A stretch of 21,870 nt of DNA from a virus: positions 1 to 21,870 of the IMG/VR virus record IMGVR_UViG_3300028840_005074; one strand, given 5' to 3'. Both the position numbers and the translations under genes were made by a program. How positions within the stretch are numbered: the first letter of the stretch is position 1; every line of letters starts with the position of its first letter. The notes under the pieces were generated by a model. The model did not search any database. It was not told the DNA's origin and saw only the letters and a program-made list of their open reading frames with translations. Below are positions 3,749 to 12,825 of the stretch, one piece after another.

Positions 3749-5721
3749 TGGATTCAGAATCAATAGAAATAAATCAATTCGATTATGATTTTATAGTTGA
3801 TCAGATTCAATCTTTAACTGATGAAAAGATTCAGCTTCAAGTTTCTGAATGGGCTGAACAGAACAGATACCTTCCTTCAGAATTAACTTCAAAGCCCGGA
3901 TTCTGGGATAATTCTTATACGCCTTACATGATAGAAATCATGAACTGTTTAAGCGTTAATTCAACAGTTCGGAAGGTTGCTGTTATGAAGGCTATTCAGA
4001 TAGCAGCAACAACAGCTATAATTGAAAATGATATAGGTTATACTATTGATCATGATCCTTGTGGAATCATGTATATTTCAGCGGATAAAGAACTTACAAA
4101 GCTTTCAGTAGATGTTAAAGTTGATAGGATGCTTCAAAGCTGCGGGCTTCTGGAAAAGATCCGTTCAGCAGATGAAAAAAGCCGTAAAACCGGAAACACT
4201 TTAGCAAAGAAAGAATTTCCCGGGGGCTTCCTTTTGGGGATGGGCGCCCGGAATCCCGGAAAGCTGCGTTCAATGTCTGTTCGTAAAATGCGCATGGATG
4301 AACTTGACGCCTTCCCCGATAAGCTTGGAAATGAAGGTGATCCGTTAAAGCTTGCGGAAAACAGAACAAAAGCTTTTGAAAATTCAAGATCCATTCTTTA
4401 TATATCTACTCCCCTTGTAATGCAAACTTCAAAAATTTATAAAGAATATTTAAAAGGGGATCAGCGGAAGTTTTTGGTTCCTTGTAAATACTGCGGGAAG
4501 AAACAGGAACTTGAATTCAATGCGGAAGATAAAAATGAAGAAGCTTATGGAATTCATTTTAAAGTTGATAAATATCAAACCTTAATTGAAGATTCTGTTT
4601 GTTATGTTTGTAAATTCTGCAAAAAGAAATGGCATGAATATGATAAAATTCATTTTCTTCCTTTAGGTGAATGGAAGCCTACAGCAAGGCCAAAGGAAGC
4701 AGATTATAGAAGTTACCATATAAACGCCCTTTACAGCCCCCCGGGTATGCAATCATGGAAAACTATATGTTATGATTATCTTGAAGCATGGGATATAAAG
4801 GCTGAAAGGGTAAAGGATATTGATGCCTTCAGAACTTTCTGGAATTGCGCCCTTGGGCTTCCATGGGAAGAAAGGGGGGAAGCTCCCCGGTTTGAAAAGA
4901 TCATTCAGCATAGAAGGCAATATGAAAGAAATTTAATTCCGAATAAGCAAGCCAAAAAAGAAGCGGGAAGCATTATTCATCTTTTAACGGGATCAGTTGA
5001 CGTTCATAAAAGGAATCTTACACTTGAAGTTATTGGATATGCTGTAAATGGAATTTCATATTCTATTGATTATAGAATTATAGAAGGTGATACACTTCTT
5101 TTATATGGTGAATCTTCCCCATGGGAAAAATTAAGAACAGCTTTATTAGATGAAATATTTTTTGCTGATGATGATAAGAAATATATGATTCAAACAACTT
5201 TTATAGATGCAAGATATAGAACTGATGAAGTTTATCAATTTTGCGGTGAATTTTCAAGCGGGGTTTATCCTATCATGGGAAGGGATGCGCCCATTAAAAC
5301 GGCAAAGCTGCGGGAATTTAGTGAATATAAAAGCAAAGCCGGAACTGTTGCGTTCAATATAAATTCAACTTTATACAAAGATAGATTCTTTAATTGGTTA
5401 AGAAGGGAATGGAACACAGGGGAAAAACAGCCTTTAGGTTATCCGAATTATCCCCGGGATTATGGGGATGATTTTTTTCATATGTATAATGCTGAATACA
5501 AACAGGAAGTGAAAAGCCGGAAAACAGGAAAAACAATAGGCTATTTTTGGGTTCAGATTCCTAATAAACCTAACCATAATATTGATACAAGGGTTTATTC
5601 AATGGCTGCGCTTGATTTGATTGTTTATTCAGTTTGCGCTGAAGTTTATGATTATGAAGGAATTAACTATTCTTTGTTCTGGCAATATTGCAAAGAAGAA
5701 AAGCCCTATTATTCAGAATAA
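3748..5721 (+). CDS. Terminase large subunit, lambda GpA type
   Basis: The packaging motor: an ATPase that drives DNA into the prohead through the portal, and a nuclease that cuts the concatemer. It has 657 residues (lambda GpA 641). Visible parts in order: KFWDNSY-type N-terminal region, an ATP-binding loop KAIQIAATTA (81-90), GGFLLGMGARNPGKLRS (159-175), Walker B MRMDELDAFP (181-190, Asp184-Glu185), motif ILYISTP (216-222), a zinc ribbon (Cys236/239 and Cys278/281), then the RNase H-like nuclease with acidic residues Asp408 (GSVDV), Asp477 (FIDAR) and probably Asp603 (NHNIDTRVY). The ATP-binding loop is odd: the expected Gly at position 86 is Ala (compare K-x-x-Q-[VI]-G-A-T-T in the family and KSARVGYSK in lambda). 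No ribosome binding site of its own is clear; translation is probably coupled to the gene before (TAATG). Confidence 0.93.
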   Translation: MDSESIEINQFDYDFIVDQIQSLTDEKIQLQVSEWAEQNRYLPSELTSKPGFWDNSYTPYMIEIMNCLSVNSTVRKVAVMKAIQIAATTAIIENDIGYTIDHDPCGIMYISADKELTKLSVDVKVDRMLQSCGLLEKIRSADEKSRKTGNTLAKKEFPGGFLLGMGARNPGKLRSMSVRKMRMDELDAFPDKLGNEGDPLKLAENRTKAFENSRSILYISTPLVMQTSKIYKEYLKGDQRKFLVPCKYCGKKQELEFNAEDKNEEAYGIHFKVDKYQTLIEDSVCYVCKFCKKKWHEYDKIHFLPLGEWKPTARPKEADYRSYHINALYSPPGMQSWKTICYDYLEAWDIKAERVKDIDAFRTFWNCALGLPWEERGEAPRFEKIIQHRRQYERNLIPNKQAKKEAGSIIHLLTGSVDVHKRNLTLEVIGYAVNGISYSIDYRIIEGDTLLLYGESSPWEKLRTALLDEIFFADDDKKYMIQTTFIDARYRTDEVYQFCGEFSSGVYPIMGRDAPIKTAKLREFSEYKSKAGTVAFNINSTLYKDRFFNWLRREWNTGEKQPLGYPNYPRDYGDDFFHMYNAEYKQEVKSRKTGKTIGYFWVQIPNKPNHNIDTRVYSMAALDLIVYSVCAEVYDYEGINYSLFWQYCKEEKPYYSE

Positions 5722-6659: not shown

Positions 6660-6863
6660 TTATTTCATTCCCATGTTTAAATATTTGTAGGCAATTCCTT
6701 TTCCTCTGCGGAACTTTGAAGCTTGTCTTGATGTATGCTTTAATCCCCTGTAAGAAGTTCCTACCATTTCTTTAGCATGATCAGGAATTTTATCTTCAGG
6801 AACAAGTGAACAAGCCCTTACAAACATTTCATCAGTTTTTGAAAATTCAAGATTTGTTTTCAT
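6660..6863 (-). CDS. Small basic protein, last gene of the leftward cassette
   Basis: A 67-residue protein with an acidic-to-neutral first half (EDKIPDHAKEMVGTSYRG) and a strongly basic second half (KHTSRQASKFRRGKG). No domain is recognised; the charge would allow nucleic acid binding. A strong ribosome binding site, AAAGGGGG, lies about four bases before the ATG. It overlaps the gene before it by 17 bases and ends just upstream of the terminator at 6609-6639. Confidence 0.65.
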   Translation of the reverse strand: MKTNLEFSKTDEMFVRACSLVPEDKIPDHAKEMVGTSYRGLKHTSRQASKFRRGKGIAYKYLNMGMK

Positions 6864-7050
6864 GTTTCCCCCTTTCTTTAATTTCCCATTTCCCGTATTC
6901 AGAATTTAAATTATCGTAAGTTTCAAAATGTTCATCTATTAAAAAGTTAATTACTTTATCCCGCTGCTTTTGAAGATCAGAACACTTTTCATTGATAATT
7001 TTAATTGTACTAAACAAACCTTCAATGGTTACTTTATCAAGCTTTTTCAT
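6847..7050 (-). CDS. Small coiled-coil-like protein, unknown
   Basis: A 67-residue protein, mostly helical with heptad-like spacing (VTIEGLFSTIKIINEKCSDLQKQRDKVINFLIDEHF), so it may oligomerise. The C-terminus is charged (KWEIKERGKHENKS). No family is recognised. Its ATG lies inside the ACATGA that ends the gene before it, and GAAAGGAAAAA precedes it. Co-transcribed with the other - strand genes. Confidence 0.65.
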   Translation of the reverse strand: MKKLDKVTIEGLFSTIKIINEKCSDLQKQRDKVINFLIDEHFETYDNLNSEYGKWEIKERGKHENKS

Positions 7051-7196
7051 GTTTTTTTTCCTTTCACGGTTTTAGAAATGAATCTTCTTAATTTTTCTGC
7101 TGCTGAAATGCCTTCCCTTTTTGATATTATCTGAAATTCAATCCATTCTTTCCTGATCAATCCTTTCAGGTAATAATCCATCTTTTTTTTCTTCAT
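7047..7196 (-). CDS. 49-aa ribbon-helix-helix candidate, probable repressor-type DNA binder
   Basis: A short open frame on the - strand: MKKKKMDYYLKGLIRKEW..., then IEFQIISKREGISAAEKLRRF and ISKTVKGKKT. The pattern of a short strand, a helix (EWIEFQIISKREG), a turn with IS, and a second helix (AAEKLRRFI) resembles the Arc/MetJ-like ribbon-helix-helix fold, whose dimers bind short inverted repeats. The ribosome binding site AAGGAAAAG sits five bases upstream, and the stop overlaps the next start (ATGA), so the gene fits the operon exactly. It is small even for this family, and the fold is judged from pattern only. Confidence 0.5.
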   Translation of the reverse strand: MKKKKMDYYLKGLIRKEWIEFQIISKREGISAAEKLRRFISKTVKGKKT

Positions 7197-7210
7197 AGGC
7201 TTTTCCTTCC

Positions 7211-7232
7211 GGGGAAGCCCGAAGGCTTCCCC
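7211..7232 (-). promoter_or_regulatory. Intercistronic hairpin with UUCG tetraloop
   Basis: GGGGAAGCC (7211-7219) and GGCTTCCCC (7224-7232) form a perfect 9-bp stem. In the - strand transcript the loop is UUCG closed by C-G, the very stable cUUCGg tetraloop. It lies between the stop at 7245 and the ribosome binding site of the 49-aa gene. No T-run follows, so it looks like an RNA-stability or processing element rather than a terminator. Confidence 0.6.
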
Positions 7233-7244
7233 ATGGTTAAAGGT

Positions 7245-7988
7245 TTATTGATGATCAGGATCTTCATCAGGAACAGGAACAAGGGTAATTCCCCGGGAAA
7301 CATCTTTCTGAAGTCTATGGTATGCTTCAGGCGCAGATTCAGCTAATTCCTTTTTCTTCTTTTTGTCTTTAACATTACAAATATCAGCAGCCCATTCAGC
7401 CCATGTATCATATTCCGATTGTTTTACTATCCTTTCTATCCGGGTAGGCCGGAAGGCGCAAAAGATCCCGGGAATTTCTTCTGTTTTGAAAAGCCCGGGT
7501 TCAGCTTCTTTTGAATCAAGATCCTGAACAGTTTTTGTAATTGCTTTTTTATGAGCAAAGAAGATCCATGTTTCCCCGATTTTGAATCCCCGGGGAACAG
7601 CTTTTATCCTTCTTGAAACGCCCATTTCAGCAGCTTCAGCCTGAAAAGCTTGCGGGGAATAAAACTTATCCCCTATCCATATCAAGCCCGCTGTTTCACC
7701 TTCCGGGAAATGTTCGGAAGGATAGCATACAGGGCAGCCCTTTGAACAGGAACAGGAATTCAAGCCCAAAAGGTTTTTGATTTTGCTTTCCGGCTTATGA
7801 TTCCCCTGAAACAAAGTTTCCGGCTGAATCCATGTAAAACCCCTTGAAAATTTAATTCCTTCCCCGCAGCAAGGGCAAACTTCTAAAGGAAGGGGAAGCC
7901 TATCACAAGGGGCGGAAAGTTTCCCCCCTACAAGATACAAGCCCCCGATTTTGCGGAATCCGCAGCCACGTTTTGATTCTACTGCCAT
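7245..7988 (-). CDS. Conserved Cys-rich phage protein of unknown function
   Basis: A 247-residue protein beginning MAVESKRGCGFRKIGGLYLVGG, with PCDRLPLPLEVCPCCGEG (Cys28, 38, 40, 41), GFTWIQPETLFQGNHK, a second Cys cluster CSCSKGCPVC (Cys79, 81, 85, 88), then MGVSRRIKAVPRGFKIGETW and PGIFCAFRPTRIERIV. I recognise this layout from uncharacterised proteins of phages and prophages. Two zinc sites are likely; function is unknown, and reading it as an RNA- or DNA-contacting protein would be a guess. It has several CCCGGG sites and normal local composition, unlike the AT-rich gene upstream of it. The ribosome binding site before the ATG is poor; coupling to the preceding gene (11-base gap) is likely. 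Confidence 0.75.
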   Translation of the reverse strand: MAVESKRGCGFRKIGGLYLVGGKLSAPCDRLPLPLEVCPCCGEGIKFSRGFTWIQPETLFQGNHKPESKIKNLLGLNSCSCSKGCPVCYPSEHFPEGETAGLIWIGDKFYSPQAFQAEAAEMGVSRRIKAVPRGFKIGETWIFFAHKKAITKTVQDLDSKEAEPGLFKTEEIPGIFCAFRPTRIERIVKQSEYDTWAEWAADICNVKDKKKKKELAESAPEAYHRLQKDVSRGITLVPVPDEDPDHQ

Positions 7989-7999
7989 AGTTCATAGTT

Positions 8000-8413
8000 T
8001 CATATTCCTTTCTTTGTTTTGTATGGTTTATATGGAGTTCCATCAACTTTTAATATTATAAAATTAAGATTTTTATATGTTTCCTTAAAAATTTCATATT
8101 TGTTTTTATTTTTATTATATGCCTGTCTTGATCCTGCAACTTCAATAAAAGTATCTGTTTTTATATCGTAAAAATCAGGTGTATATCTTTTTCCATCTTT
8201 AAGCCTGAAGGTAGCGGGAAGATAAATCCATTCATTATGATTAAAATAATTTTTGATAAATTCTATTTCATTTTTGTGAAATATTTCTTTGTCGTTTAAT
8301 TTATTTATTTTTCTTTTTTTATTATAAAGCTTCCAATAACAAAGCTTACAAAGATTTCTTTTTTTTATATAAATTTCGTTTTTTTTACATGAAACACATT
8401 TTTTTTTATTCAT
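8000..8413 (-). CDS. Putative PD-(D/E)xK-like nuclease with N-terminal zinc finger
   Basis: A 137-residue, very Lys/Asn-rich protein. The N-terminus has two CxxC pairs (Cys6/Cys9 and Cys22/Cys25) that would bind zinc. The second half has YTPDFYD (Asp80) followed eleven residues later by FIEVAG (Glu91) and a basic helix, then NFIILKVDG. This matches the core of small restriction-like or homing-like nucleases (PDF...E.xG), with Glu49 or Glu51 as a possible extra acidic residue; the usual Lys of ExK is Ala here. It is the first gene of the leftward cassette, with an AAGGGGG site before the start. It is far more AT-rich than its neighbours and lacks CCCGGG, suggesting recent acquisition. Catalytic activity is uncertain. 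Confidence 0.55.
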   Translation of the reverse strand: MNKKKCVSCKKNEIYIKKRNLCKLCYWKLYNKKRKINKLNDKEIFHKNEIEFIKNYFNHNEWIYLPATFRLKDGKRYTPDFYDIKTDTFIEVAGSRQAYNKNKNKYEIFKETYKNLNFIILKVDGTPYKPYKTKKGI

Positions 8414-8431
8414 AATTTCCCCCTTGAAATT

Positions 8432-8460
8432 AATATATTGTTTTGTTTATTATTTTGCAA
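8432..8460 (-). promoter_or_regulatory. Promoter for the leftward cassette
   Basis: On the - strand, TTGCAA (8455-8460) and TATATT (8432-8437) are spaced by exactly 17 bp, a good sigma-70 match. Transcription would begin near 8425, just before the ribosome binding site at about 8418-8424, so the leader is very short. Upstream lie phased A-tracts that could stimulate it. Confidence 0.55.
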
Positions 8461-8469
8461 GCTATTTTT

Positions 8470-8499
8470 ACAAAAAAATACAAAAAAATACAAAAAAAC
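8470..8499. repeat. Phased A-tracts: three copies of a 10-bp unit
   Basis: ACAAAAAAAT is repeated three times head to tail (last copy ends in C instead of T). Each copy carries seven A, and the 10-bp period matches one helical turn, which gives intrinsically bent DNA. The bend lies between the leftward promoter and the rightward control elements. Confidence 0.75.
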
Positions 8500-8536
8500 T
8501 ATATATGGTGGTTTAATAAATTAATAATTGAATATG

Positions 8537-8565
8537 TTGACATTTAAGATCAAAAATGATTAGCT
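8537..8565 (+). promoter_or_regulatory. Candidate rightward promoter of a short leader RNA
   Basis: A perfect TTGACA (8537-8542) is followed 17 bp later by a poor -10 (TTAGCT, 8560-8565). A transcript starting near 8571 would run into the terminator at 8618-8654 after about 85 nt. The weak -10 means it may need an activator, or may not be a promoter. Confidence 0.35.
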
Positions 8566-8572
8566 TTTTTCA

Positions 8573-8654
8573 GGGGATTTATCGGATTCCCAAATTCATA
8601 TTCTTTTCCTGTATTTAGGGGGCTTTACAGAAATGTTTAGCCCCCTTCTTTTTT
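8573..8654 (+). ncRNA. Possible short leader or small RNA ending at a terminator
   Basis: Two hairpins are visible: GGGGAT (8573-8578) with ATTCCC (8586-8591), then the terminator stem at 8618-8645. No convincing open frame lies between them. With the TTGACA at 8537 this could be a stand-alone small RNA or an attenuated leader of the head operon. Purely predicted from structure and spacing. Confidence 0.3.
8618..8654 (+). terminator. Intrinsic terminator upstream of the head-tail operon
   Basis: GGGGGCT (8618-8624) pairs with AGCCCCC (8639-8645); an inner ACA/TGT stem closes a GAAA tetraloop. The stem is followed by TTCTTTTTT. This is a strong + strand terminator standing just before the head gene block, so transcripts from upstream should not enter that block unless terminator read-through is regulated. 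Confidence 0.8.
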
Positions 8655-8663
8655 GAAAATATC

Positions 8664-8720
8664 TTTTCAGAATGAAAAATTCCTTGACTTTGCAATATAA
8701 TTTCGTTTTCATTGTGAAAA
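8664..8720. promoter_or_regulatory. Two identical dyad operators flanking a TATAAT promoter
   Basis: TTTTCA-GAA-TGAAAA at 8664-8678 and TTTTCA-TTG-TGAAAA at 8706-8720 are perfect inverted repeats with the same arms and the same 3-base spacer, 42 bp apart centre to centre (four helical turns). Between them is a consensus TATAAT at 8696-8701. The first dyad covers the -35 position (8673-8678), the second covers the expected transcription start near 8708. This is the layout of a promoter repressed, or controlled by looping, through a symmetric DNA-binding protein. Confidence 0.65.
8673..8701 (+). promoter_or_regulatory. Promoter of the head-tail operon
   Basis: TATAAT at 8696-8701 with a poor -35 (TGAAAA at 8673-8678, 17-bp spacing). 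Predicted start is near 8708, giving a leader of about 50 nt before the first gene at 8758. It lies downstream of the terminator at 8618-8654 and is flanked by dyad operators. Confidence 0.5.
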
Positions 8721-8727
8721 GAAGTTA

Positions 8728-8759
8728 ATTTCAACCTGAAAAGCTTTTCAAATTGAAAT
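8728..8759. promoter_or_regulatory. Third dyad, overlapping the first start codon
   Basis: TGAAAAGCTTTTCA (8737-8750) is a perfect 14-bp palindrome; ATTTCAA (8728-8734) and TTGAAAT (8753-8759) extend it around the same centre, with two unpaired positions on each side. The half-sites TGAAAA and TTTTCA are those of the two upstream dyads, in inverted order. In RNA it would fold over the start codon at 8758, where no ribosome binding site is seen. Confidence 0.55.
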
Positions 8760-9012
8760 GGATACTGAATTTCTTCAATCCCGGATAACCAGAACAAAGG
8801 AATTAATAGTTTTATATGAAGATGCTATTGAATTTCTGATAACAAATCCTACAAAATCCTATAATTTAAATACGGGTCAAGATTCTCAATCAATGACAAG
8901 ACAAGATTTGTCGCAGCTTCAGGATTCATTAGATGCCTTAATGAATAGATTATGTGTTCTTGAAGCCCGTTTAACAGGTAATAATTCAGTTGTAGGGGTT
9001 CCCGGATGGTAA
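8758..9012 (+). CDS. Small head protein at the gpW position
   Basis: An 84-residue helical protein between the control region and the portal gene. It has an N-terminal helix (FLQSRITRTKELIVLYEDAIEFL), a polar middle (KSYNLNTGQDSQS), and a C-terminal helix MTRQDLSQLQDSLDALMNRL with leucine spacing. Size, position directly before the portal and the 'T-R-x-D-L-x-x-L' helix fit gpW-like head-completion proteins and similar small portal-linked proteins; lambda gpW is 68 aa. It has no visible ribosome binding site, and a palindrome covers its ATG, so initiation may be regulated. The gpW assignment is tentative. Confidence 0.5.
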   Translation: MDTEFLQSRITRTKELIVLYEDAIEFLITNPTKSYNLNTGQDSQSMTRQDLSQLQDSLDALMNRLCVLEARLTGNNSVVGVPGW

Positions 9013-10835
9013 TGAATCCTTTTAAAAGAAAGCCCGGAAATAAGGATTTAATGGCTGCTGTTGCCTATGCTTATGATCAAGTATCGGCTTCAGCCCATCA
9101 TGAAACTATTAAATCTGATCAGGCGCCCGCTGCGGATCTTCAGCCTGAAATAACTCATGCTTCCCCTTCCGCATATTCCGGGGCTTCATTAGGTTCAAAT
9201 TATACTTTCGGAATAGTCAATTCCCTTTTTACAGGTGATAAATTCCCGGGGGGGTTCGGGGCTACAAAAAATTATTTCGTTGATTATTGGACGCTGCGGA
9301 TAAGATCCGTTCAGCTATTCAATGAAAATTTATACGCCCGGGGGCTGATTCAGCGCCTTATTACAAATGAAATCAATACAGGATTGACGCTTGAAGCTAC
9401 GCCTGAAGGTTCAATTCTGAATATGACAGATGATGAAGTTAATGAATGGGCTGAAAATACAGAAAAGATTTTTCAGATATGGGGGGATAATAAAAATGTT
9501 TGTTCATGGAACAAGCAAGAAACTTTAGGACAGCTTCAGCAATCAGCCCGCAGAACAGCCCTTCTTTCCGGGGATGCTGTAATAATTTTAAGACAAGCCC
9601 CCGCAACAAAACTTTTTCAGATTGAAATTATTGATGGTGTTCATGTTTGTAATCCATTAGATTCAAAATTAACAAAAGCTGCAACAGCCCGGGGAAATAA
9701 AATTGTTCACGGTGTTGAAATTGATAAAAATGGGCGCCATGTTGCATATTATATAAAACAGGACGCTTCAAAATTTCTTAATCAATCAAATGTAACAACT
9801 TCAGCAAAAGATTTAAAAAATAGGAATCAAATTATAAGGGTTCCTGTTCGGGGTTCAAAATCCGGGCGTAAGATAGCTTGGATGATTTATGGAAGCCCTA
9901 AAAGGGTTGATGAAGTTCGGGGGATGCCTATACTTGCTGCGGTACTTCAAAGCCTGAAGGAAATTGACAGATTCCGGGATTCAGAACAGCGGGCTGCTGT
10001 TATAAATTCGCTTCTTCCTTTATTCATTTCAAAGACACAAACAAAGCCCGGATCAAGACCAGTTACAGGGGGCGCTGTTAAAAAAACGGATGTTGATTTA
10101 ACTGATTCTGATGGAAGTACCAGAACAAAAACTTTTGCCCATCATATTCCGGGGCTGATTTTTGATGAACTTCAGGCAGGGGAAAAGCCGGAAAGCTTTG
10201 ATACAAAAAGGCCGAATTTAAGCTTTCAGGGATTTCAAGATGTAATTATAAATACTGTTGCATGGGCTAATGAAATTCCGCCTGAAATTATGCAGCTTGC
10301 TTTTTCAAATAATTATTCTGCTTCCCGGGCTGCTATCAATGAATTCAAAGTTTATCTTGATAGAATCAGAACAGATTTTTCAAATGATTTTAATAAGCCT
10401 ATTTATCATGAATGGCTAATCAATATGGTTTTAACAAGGCGCCTTGAAGCCCCCGGGCTTTTGGAAGCATGGCGGAATCCTTCAGAATTTATTATTTATG
10501 GCGCATGGATTTCTTCAGAATGGGCGGGCGCAATCAAGCCAAGTGTTGACAGAGAAAAAGAAGTTAAAGCTTATGAAAGAATGATAAGGCATGGCTTTAT
10601 AACTCATGATAGGGCTTCAAAAGAATTAACCGGAACAAAATATTCAACAAATATAAAACGGCTTGAAAAAGAAAATGAACAAAAGGTTAAAGCAGCGCAG
10701 CCGTTAATTGATGCGGGCTTAATAAAAAAAGAAGCTTTTGCAAATTTAAATGAAGTTCAAATAGAAGGCTTAATTGATTATATAAAAAATATAACTGAAG
10801 AAACTATTGAAGAAAATGATTACATGATTCAATAG
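9006..10835 (+). CDS. Portal protein, lambda GpB type
   Basis: Forms the dodecameric ring at one vertex through which terminase pumps DNA and to which the tail connects. It has 609 residues (lambda GpB 533). Family features: DYWTLRIRSVQLFNENLYARGLIQRLITNEINTGL (about 95-130), a middle region with GQLQQSARRTALLSGDAVIIL, HVCNP, the KRVDEVRGMPILAAVLQSLKEIDRFRDSEQRAAVI helix-rich stem, and IPPEIMQLAFSNNYSASRAAINEFK (about 425-450), a strong lambda-portal signature. ATG at 9006 is preferred because GGGG at 8994-8997 is well spaced; ATG at 9012 overlaps the previous stop (TAATG) and is the alternative. The next gene follows after 8 bases. Confidence 0.92.
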   Translation: MVMNPFKRKPGNKDLMAAVAYAYDQVSASAHHETIKSDQAPAADLQPEITHASPSAYSGASLGSNYTFGIVNSLFTGDKFPGGFGATKNYFVDYWTLRIRSVQLFNENLYARGLIQRLITNEINTGLTLEATPEGSILNMTDDEVNEWAENTEKIFQIWGDNKNVCSWNKQETLGQLQQSARRTALLSGDAVIILRQAPATKLFQIEIIDGVHVCNPLDSKLTKAATARGNKIVHGVEIDKNGRHVAYYIKQDASKFLNQSNVTTSAKDLKNRNQIIRVPVRGSKSGRKIAWMIYGSPKRVDEVRGMPILAAVLQSLKEIDRFRDSEQRAAVINSLLPLFISKTQTKPGSRPVTGGAVKKTDVDLTDSDGSTRTKTFAHHIPGLIFDELQAGEKPESFDTKRPNLSFQGFQDVIINTVAWANEIPPEIMQLAFSNNYSASRAAINEFKVYLDRIRTDFSNDFNKPIYHEWLINMVLTRRLEAPGLLEAWRNPSEFIIYGAWISSEWAGAIKPSVDREKEVKAYERMIRHGFITHDRASKELTGTKYSTNIKRLEKENEQKVKAAQPLIDAGLIKKEAFANLNEVQIEGLIDYIKNITEETIEENDYMIQ

Positions 10836-11994: not shown

Positions 11995-12399
11995 ATGGGT
12001 GATAATTTTCAGATTATAAACAATGATTCAGGAAGGATTCCGGTTTTTAATCCGCTTTATGAAACAGTTACGGTTAATGCCGGGGGCGCTGTTGATTATG
12101 ATGCGGGAACTGTTCTTGCTTTTGATGCCGGAAAATATAAGCTTACACAAAGCGGAACTGCTGCTGTTGCAAAAGCACAGGCTATTCTTGCGCAGGATCT
12201 TTCTTTTTCAGGCGCAGGGGATCTAACAGCAAGAGTTCTTATAGGCGGGCAAGTTGTAGCTTCCAAGCTTATCTTTGATGGTTCGGATGATCTTGATACT
12301 ATTCCGGCTACTGAAGTTGATTCTTTCCGGCTGATGCTGCGGGATTACGGAATTATAGCTGTTCCTGATACCGTTATTGATGAACTTGACAATCAGTAA
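11995..12399 (+). CDS. Head decoration protein, copy 1
   Basis: A 134-residue protein of the phage head-decoration type, beta-rich, between scaffold and capsid genes exactly where lambda gpD-like genes sit. Features: FNPLYETVTVNAGGAVDYDAGTVLAFD (19-45), KAQAILAQDLSFSGAGDLTARVLIGGQVV, and the C-terminal block DDLDTIPATEVDSFRLMLRDYGIIAVP. Decoration trimers clamp the expanded capsid against DNA pressure. It has a strong AAGGGGG site. The next gene is a divergent copy with the same C-terminal block. Confidence 0.75.
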   Translation: MGDNFQIINNDSGRIPVFNPLYETVTVNAGGAVDYDAGTVLAFDAGKYKLTQSGTAAVAKAQAILAQDLSFSGAGDLTARVLIGGQVVASKLIFDGSDDLDTIPATEVDSFRLMLRDYGIIAVPDTVIDELDNQ

Positions 12400-12414: not shown

Positions 12415-12825
12415 ATGTCGAATATTGAAAAAATAATTTCTGATTCAATTAGGCTTATTGTTAAAAATCCTGTTTTTGAAGAAGTTGACATTACAAATAT
12501 TTTCGGAACACCTATAACAGTTTTAGAAGGATCTGTTTTATCATTTGATGCAACAACGGGAAAATATAATGCTACTTATTCAGCAATTCCGGCTTTAGCA
12601 AATGCAAAAGCTGTTTCAATGGGAACTGTAAGTTTTGATACAGCAGAAACAAAACGGGTAACAATTTTAACAAAAGGTCAAGTTAATGAAGAAATCTTAT
12701 TATTTCAGCCCGGGGATGATCTTGATACTATTCCGCCCGGGGGTTCTGATTCATTTAGAACACAATTACGGGATTACGGAATTATAACTGTTCCTGAAAG
12801 TTTTCAGGATGAAATTGATAATTAA
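12415..12825 (+). CDS. Head decoration protein, copy 2 (paralogue)
   Basis: A 136-residue paralogue of the preceding protein. Shared parts: NPVFEEV/NPLYETV near residue 18, GxVLSFDATTGKYN against GTVLAFDAGKYK, and the C-terminal block DDLDTIP...DSFR.QLRDYGIITVP. The N-terminal half is much more divergent than the C-terminal block, where the DNA also matches closely (GATGATCTTGATACTATTCC at both sites). It has no clear ribosome binding site and starts 15 bases after copy 1, so it is probably translated at a lower level or by coupling. It may form mixed decoration trimers, or sit at different capsid sites (inference). Confidence 0.7.
   Translation: MSNIEKIISDSIRLIVKNPVFEEVDITNIFGTPITVLEGSVLSFDATTGKYNATYSAIPALANAKAVSMGTVSFDTAETKRVTILTKGQVNEEILLFQPGDDLDTIPPGGSDSFRTQLRDYGIITVPESFQDEIDN

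Follow-up and report, generated by a model that had tools for sequence, protein, structure and literature searches.

Four copies of a short dyad at the late promoter of an uncultured phage: a candidate lineage-specific operator array for an HTH_3-type regulator

Introduction

In temperate phages, Cro/CI arrays of the lambda OR/OL kind carry several copies of a short dyad around a promoter and lie between divergent regulator genes, while the HigBA-type toxin-antitoxin operons are autoregulated. The contractile-tailed phage Mu has dedicated control of its middle and late genes by Mor and C, with one dyad upstream of a promoter with a poor -35 element; the dyad bound by Mor is centred at -43.5 and overlaps the -35 (PMC4287176).

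The late switch is not known for most uncultured phages. Here we describe a stretch of 21,870 nt (positions 1 to 21,870 of IMG/VR record IMGVR_UViG_3300028840_005074, hereafter the window) where the sequence alone points to a late promoter with its operator and to one candidate regulator, so that a direct test becomes possible. Its array shares the repeated short dyad with the Cro/CI systems and the position of a dyad at the -35 region with Mu.

Results

The dyad array and its geometry

A pattern search of the window returned four exact copies of TTTCA-N3-TGAAA (sites 1 to 4) around a putative promoter and in front of a head-tail adaptor gene. The elements of the region are as follows, positions relative to the transcription start being approximate.

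8617..8655, plus strand: hairpin resembling a terminator, its tail U-rich, located upstream of the promoter; -19.6 kcal/mol, z -3.9
8665..8677, no strand: site 1, TTTCAGAATGAAA; centre near -38, over the -35 position
8672-8677, plus strand: best -35 element, ATGAAA, inside site 1; 18-nt spacer to TATAAT
8696..8701, plus strand: -10 element TATAAT, flanked by the four sites; kept in the relative L028
8707..8719, no strand: site 2, TTTCATTGTGAAA; centre near +4, over the likely transcription start
8728..8759, no strand: sites 3 and 4, which together make up a 32-bp palindrome (repeat I11), arms 88% complementary
8729..8741, no strand: site 3, TTTCAACCTGAAA; centre near +26, in the leader
8746..8758, no strand: site 4, TTTCAAATTGAAA; centre near +43, its last base being base 1 of the start codon
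8758..9012, plus strand: head-tail adaptor gene, first of the late operon; PHROG 118, E 5e-8
9006..10835, plus strand: portal gene, second of the late operon; Pfam PF05136, E 7e-55

Sites 1 and 2 are also perfect as the longer 15-mer TTTTCA-N3-TGAAAA (TTTTCAGAATGAAAA at 8664-8678 and TTTTCATTGTGAAAA at 8706-8720), thus confirming an earlier note on this DNA, which had described two perfect dyads 42 bp apart covering the -35 and the transcription start, here the likely start. When extended in the same way, sites 3 (ATTTCAACCTGAAAA, 8728-8742) and 4 (TTTTCAAATTGAAAT, 8745-8759) are each one outer base off the 15-mer and exact as 13-mers. The centres of the four sites, at 8671, 8713, 8735 and 8752, are separated by 42, 22 and 17 bp, corresponding to 4.0, 2.1 and 1.6 helical turns. 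The same note had placed a third dyad with inverted half-sites about three turns further on; this element exists (TGAAAAGCTTTTCA at 8737-8750) and its centre was measured 30.5 bp (2.9 turns) past site 2, but it is the join of sites 3 and 4. The array is therefore real and consists of four sites rather than two plus one.

Chance and uniqueness

The region 8414-8770 (357 bp) was subjected to dinucleotide shuffling, counting any 5+5 palindrome with a gap of 0-10 and at least one G or C in the half-site. Four copies were found in none of 20,000 shuffles and three copies in one, which bears out the earlier statement that chance is very unlikely; earlier shuffles that allowed half-sites made of A and T only had given higher chance counts. 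Nowhere else in the window is any 5+5 palindrome found at least three times inside 110 bp. Across the window there are six copies of the 13-mer and none of the reversed control pattern; the two further copies, at 9615 and 12802, were rejected as operators, both being intragenic. The adjoining contig L115 (19,470 bp) contains no TTTCA-N3-TGAAA, and the search of the rest of the phage that the note had proposed showed the array to be unique in the roughly 41 kb made up by the window and L115. Phage records returned no convincing DNA relatives of the array, and the literature searched, with partial coverage, held no direct precedent either for the dyad as written or for XRE-class control of late promoters.

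The late operon and the region upstream

The adaptor and portal genes open a same-strand block in which capsid and tail genes are followed by baseplate-like, fibre-like and amidase genes. The sizes and order of the further genes fit a protease, a capsid and a contractile tail, the unscanned ones being named by resemblance. The last 144 nt of the window are identical (100%) to the end of IMG/VR contig 3300028840_007222 (L115), and the join of the two contigs, which come from separate assemblies, rests on this overlap. L115 continues on the same strand with the baseplate-like and fibre-like genes and an amidase (PF01520), followed by a convergent early region, giving a late operon of about 20 kb and a total of about 41.2 kb, to be compared with the 41.7-46.8 kb of the long relative records. 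Within the block, the adjacent genes 11995-12399 and 12415-12825 precede the probable major capsid gene and are 73% identical in DNA along a stretch of about 110 bp (12285-12393 and 12714-12822), apparently because the gene of a probable head protein was duplicated in tandem.

Taken on its own, the score of the late promoter is suggestive only (p ~0.07), and no clear Shine-Dalgarno was seen before 8758. The hairpin at 8617-8655 went unreported in a simple terminator scan with a loop limit of 8. It is preceded by a TTGACA at 8537-8542 and about 100 nt without an ORF; the stretch 8537-8655 folds better than its shuffles (z -2.85) and may represent a small RNA gene or an insulator before the late promoter. 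No known RNA families or tRNAs were found. The intergenic region is AT-rich, with 17% G+C around 8400-8550, and three perfect tandem copies of TACAAAAAAA lie at 8469-8498, between the late promoter and a minus-strand cassette (6660-8413). This cassette, with a promoter-like site at 8460-8432, comprises five small genes between terminase/radical SAM and the head operon, none of which gave a Pfam match at 0.001. A cassette-type insert is not present in L028, and minus-strand ORFs occur at this place in L006; the region is likely an insertion hot spot.

The same dyad in other viral contigs

Pattern scans of viral contigs returned arrays of the dyad in 13 contigs. Four of them carry the array at HTH_3 genes: L007 and L012, which are alike, and L016 have three copies of TTTCA-N3-TGAAA between divergent HTH_3 genes, and L019 has the TTTTCA-N3-TGAAAA 15-mer twice, directly before higB of a higBA pair. 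Since these represent three independent cases of arrays at HTH_3 gene promoters, the dyad seems to be repeatedly used by HTH_3 proteins and, by analogy, a protein of this class may well read the window array.

The arrays of the remaining contigs are found within or next to probable replication genes, or are coding repeats; the matches in L010, L008 and L013 were discarded as unrelated coding repeats. Regularly spaced arrays of GTTTCA-N3-TGAAAC were observed in L009 (1500-1554, within a gene with a weak HTH_36 match), in L018 (8545-8676, beside a RepA_N-like gene) and, in intergenic position, in L011 (7683-7761) and L015 (591-681). These arrays might represent iterons from phage or plasmid origins.

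Conservation in relatives

Relatives were collected from portal searches and phage records, for a total of about 85 portal-bearing loci. The earlier note had named missing conservation of the dyads in relatives as one half of what would refute it, and this half went against the note: the array is present in none of these loci, a few of which end before the site; a single copy of the dyad was found in one relative, L076. Among about 60 relatives with the adaptor gene correctly located, a count that excludes 13 loci with a misplaced adaptor frame (e.g. L029, L036 and L046), no repeated palindrome of any kind precedes this gene. As the array is absent from relatives, it is specific to a narrow lineage at most. 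Promoters at this position are frequent in the family, with p <= 0.05 in 16 of 74 sequences, some misplaced frames included, against about four expected. When L028, the closest relative at 58% portal identity, is compared with the window, the TATAAT, the leader and the start codon align, whereas the dyads do not.

Candidate regulators

The phage encodes, on the adjoining contig, one protein with a recognised Cro/CI-type domain.

L115:4289-4486, minus strand: HTH_3 protein of 65 aa; HTH_3 E 1.2e-7

It is the only such protein recognised in the window and L115, and its gene is the first of the leftward early operon of L115, ahead of the phage O replication gene; the divergent early control region has two TTGACA promoters. 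Cro/CI genes usually have sites at their own promoter, whereas L115, including 4487-4685 at the promoter of this gene, contains no TTTCA-N3-TGAAA, the mark of autoregulation that was sought. Among 20 records, HTH_3 scored above cut-off in L115 and in one record of 46.8 kb (three copies) only, while HTH_3 is missing from four relative records of 41.7-44.7 kb, as is the array from the loci examined in them. The co-occurrence of array and HTH_3 gene, based on one phage, is suggestive.

The earlier note had instead pointed to the 49-aa protein encoded at 7047-7196. This proposal found no backing, as the protein matched no family or solved structure and its single-sequence model (pLDDT 81) has two helices but lacks the beta strand that a ribbon-helix-helix fold would have. 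Of two minus-strand proteins that were modelled, neither had a recognisable DNA-binding fold, and the second model was of low confidence. The HTH_3 protein of L115 is a better candidate, and another regulator may be encoded in the remaining few kb of the phage.

Discussion

These data are best read as a lineage-specific array of operators for a regulator of the HTH_3 type, which more likely represses than activates one late operon of about 20 kb. From the arrangement described we infer protein binding, an HTH_3 class for the binder and repression. We give roughly even chances to the four sites being the operator of a dimeric Cro/CI (XRE, HTH_3) regulator that gates the single late-operon promoter. 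That the regulator is this very 65-aa HTH_3 protein is a more tentative step; it is the prime suspect, though its chance is perhaps well below even. A dedicated operator for the virion operon had already been proposed, and the proposal gains support from the uniqueness of the array in about 41 kb and its place at the promoter of the same-strand late block. Dimers on sites 1 and 2, four helical turns apart, would occupy the -35 position and the start of transcription, and two further dimers on sites 3 and 4 would back them in blocking RNA polymerase, so that the virion genes (head, tail, baseplate, lysis) would be silent for as long as the regulator is not lost, diluted or inactivated. We favour repression because site 1 covers the -35 position and the other three sites fall on or beyond the likely start. 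The position of site 4, which is 7.7 turns from site 1 and out of helical phase, counts against this explanation, as do the absence of the array from relatives and the lack of a site at the HTH_3 gene's own promoter.

An activator or dual regulator would use the same sites differently, a dimer on site 1 replacing the missing -35 contact, in the way of Mor and C at the Mu middle and late promoters, and the downstream sites shutting the promoter at high concentration. Such a role fits a promoter whose TATAAT is consensus but whose -35 is poor and covered by a dyad, and it fits the Mor dyad of Mu, which at -43.5 also overlaps the -35 (PMC4287176). However, site 1, with its centre near -38, covers the -35 position completely, a protein bound at the other three sites, at or past the transcription start, blocks polymerase, and the small ORFs scanned in the window and L115 include no Mor/C-like protein; activation is the less likely reading in our judgement. 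Less probable again is that the array is read by a repressor or antitoxin of the host or of a resident prophage rather than by the phage HTH_3 protein, in which case late expression would answer to the host or another phage. The identical pair of 15-mers at the higBA promoter of L019 and the missing site at the HTH_3 gene's own promoter favour this idea, but no positive link was found between the phage and any host regulator.

Two further explanations rank lowest. The sites might be iterons of a replication origin, given the AT-rich intergenic region with its TACAAAAAAA repeat and the GTTTCA-N3-TGAAAC arrays that L009 and L018 carry within or next to probable replication genes. The window array, however, coincides with a promoter and reaches into a start codon, and this reading is very improbable because the O gene on L115 has its own repeats in the usual place of a lambda-type origin: three copies of GTAATCTTTTTTGATGACCTTT at L115 3549-3693, a possible in-gene origin. 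Slightly more improbable still is an RNA hairpin formed by the start-codon palindrome (8728-8759) and controlling translation of the adaptor gene, the possible translational control of the earlier note. The palindrome takes in part of the start codon and no clear Shine-Dalgarno precedes it, but its folding energy is ordinary for its composition (z -0.76 and -1.05 against shuffles), the aligned leader of L028 has lost the dyads, and sites 1 and 2 would be left unexplained.

If the operator reading is confirmed, late-gene control can be rewired fast, as promoter and leader are common to the window and a relative of 58% portal identity and the operator is not. A stronger version, which we consider rather doubtful, holds that the late operon is the sole target of the only HTH_3 regulator recognised in the phage, reached through a four-site array that the regulator's own promoter lacks; this would be a dedicated virion-operon timer, recently gained in one lineage whose relatives use a promoter without the array.

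With the HigBA-type operon of L019 the window array shares the 15-mer, in two copies there before higB, whereas its own surroundings contain no recognised toxin-antitoxin pair. Likeness to the Mu middle and late promoters extends to the dyad at the -35 region, the poor -35, dedicated gene control and a Mu-like contractile-tailed phage; Mu, however, has one dyad upstream of the promoter, near -43, and activation, whereas here four dyads are present, three of them at or after the start, with site 1 near -38, a value obtained by sequence only from a predicted start. The Cro/CI arrays of the lambda OR/OL kind, also found in L007, L012 and L016, carry like the window several copies of a short dyad around a promoter but lie between divergent regulator genes, while the window array lies at the late operon instead. 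The regulation would be of an ordinary kind in a notable location.
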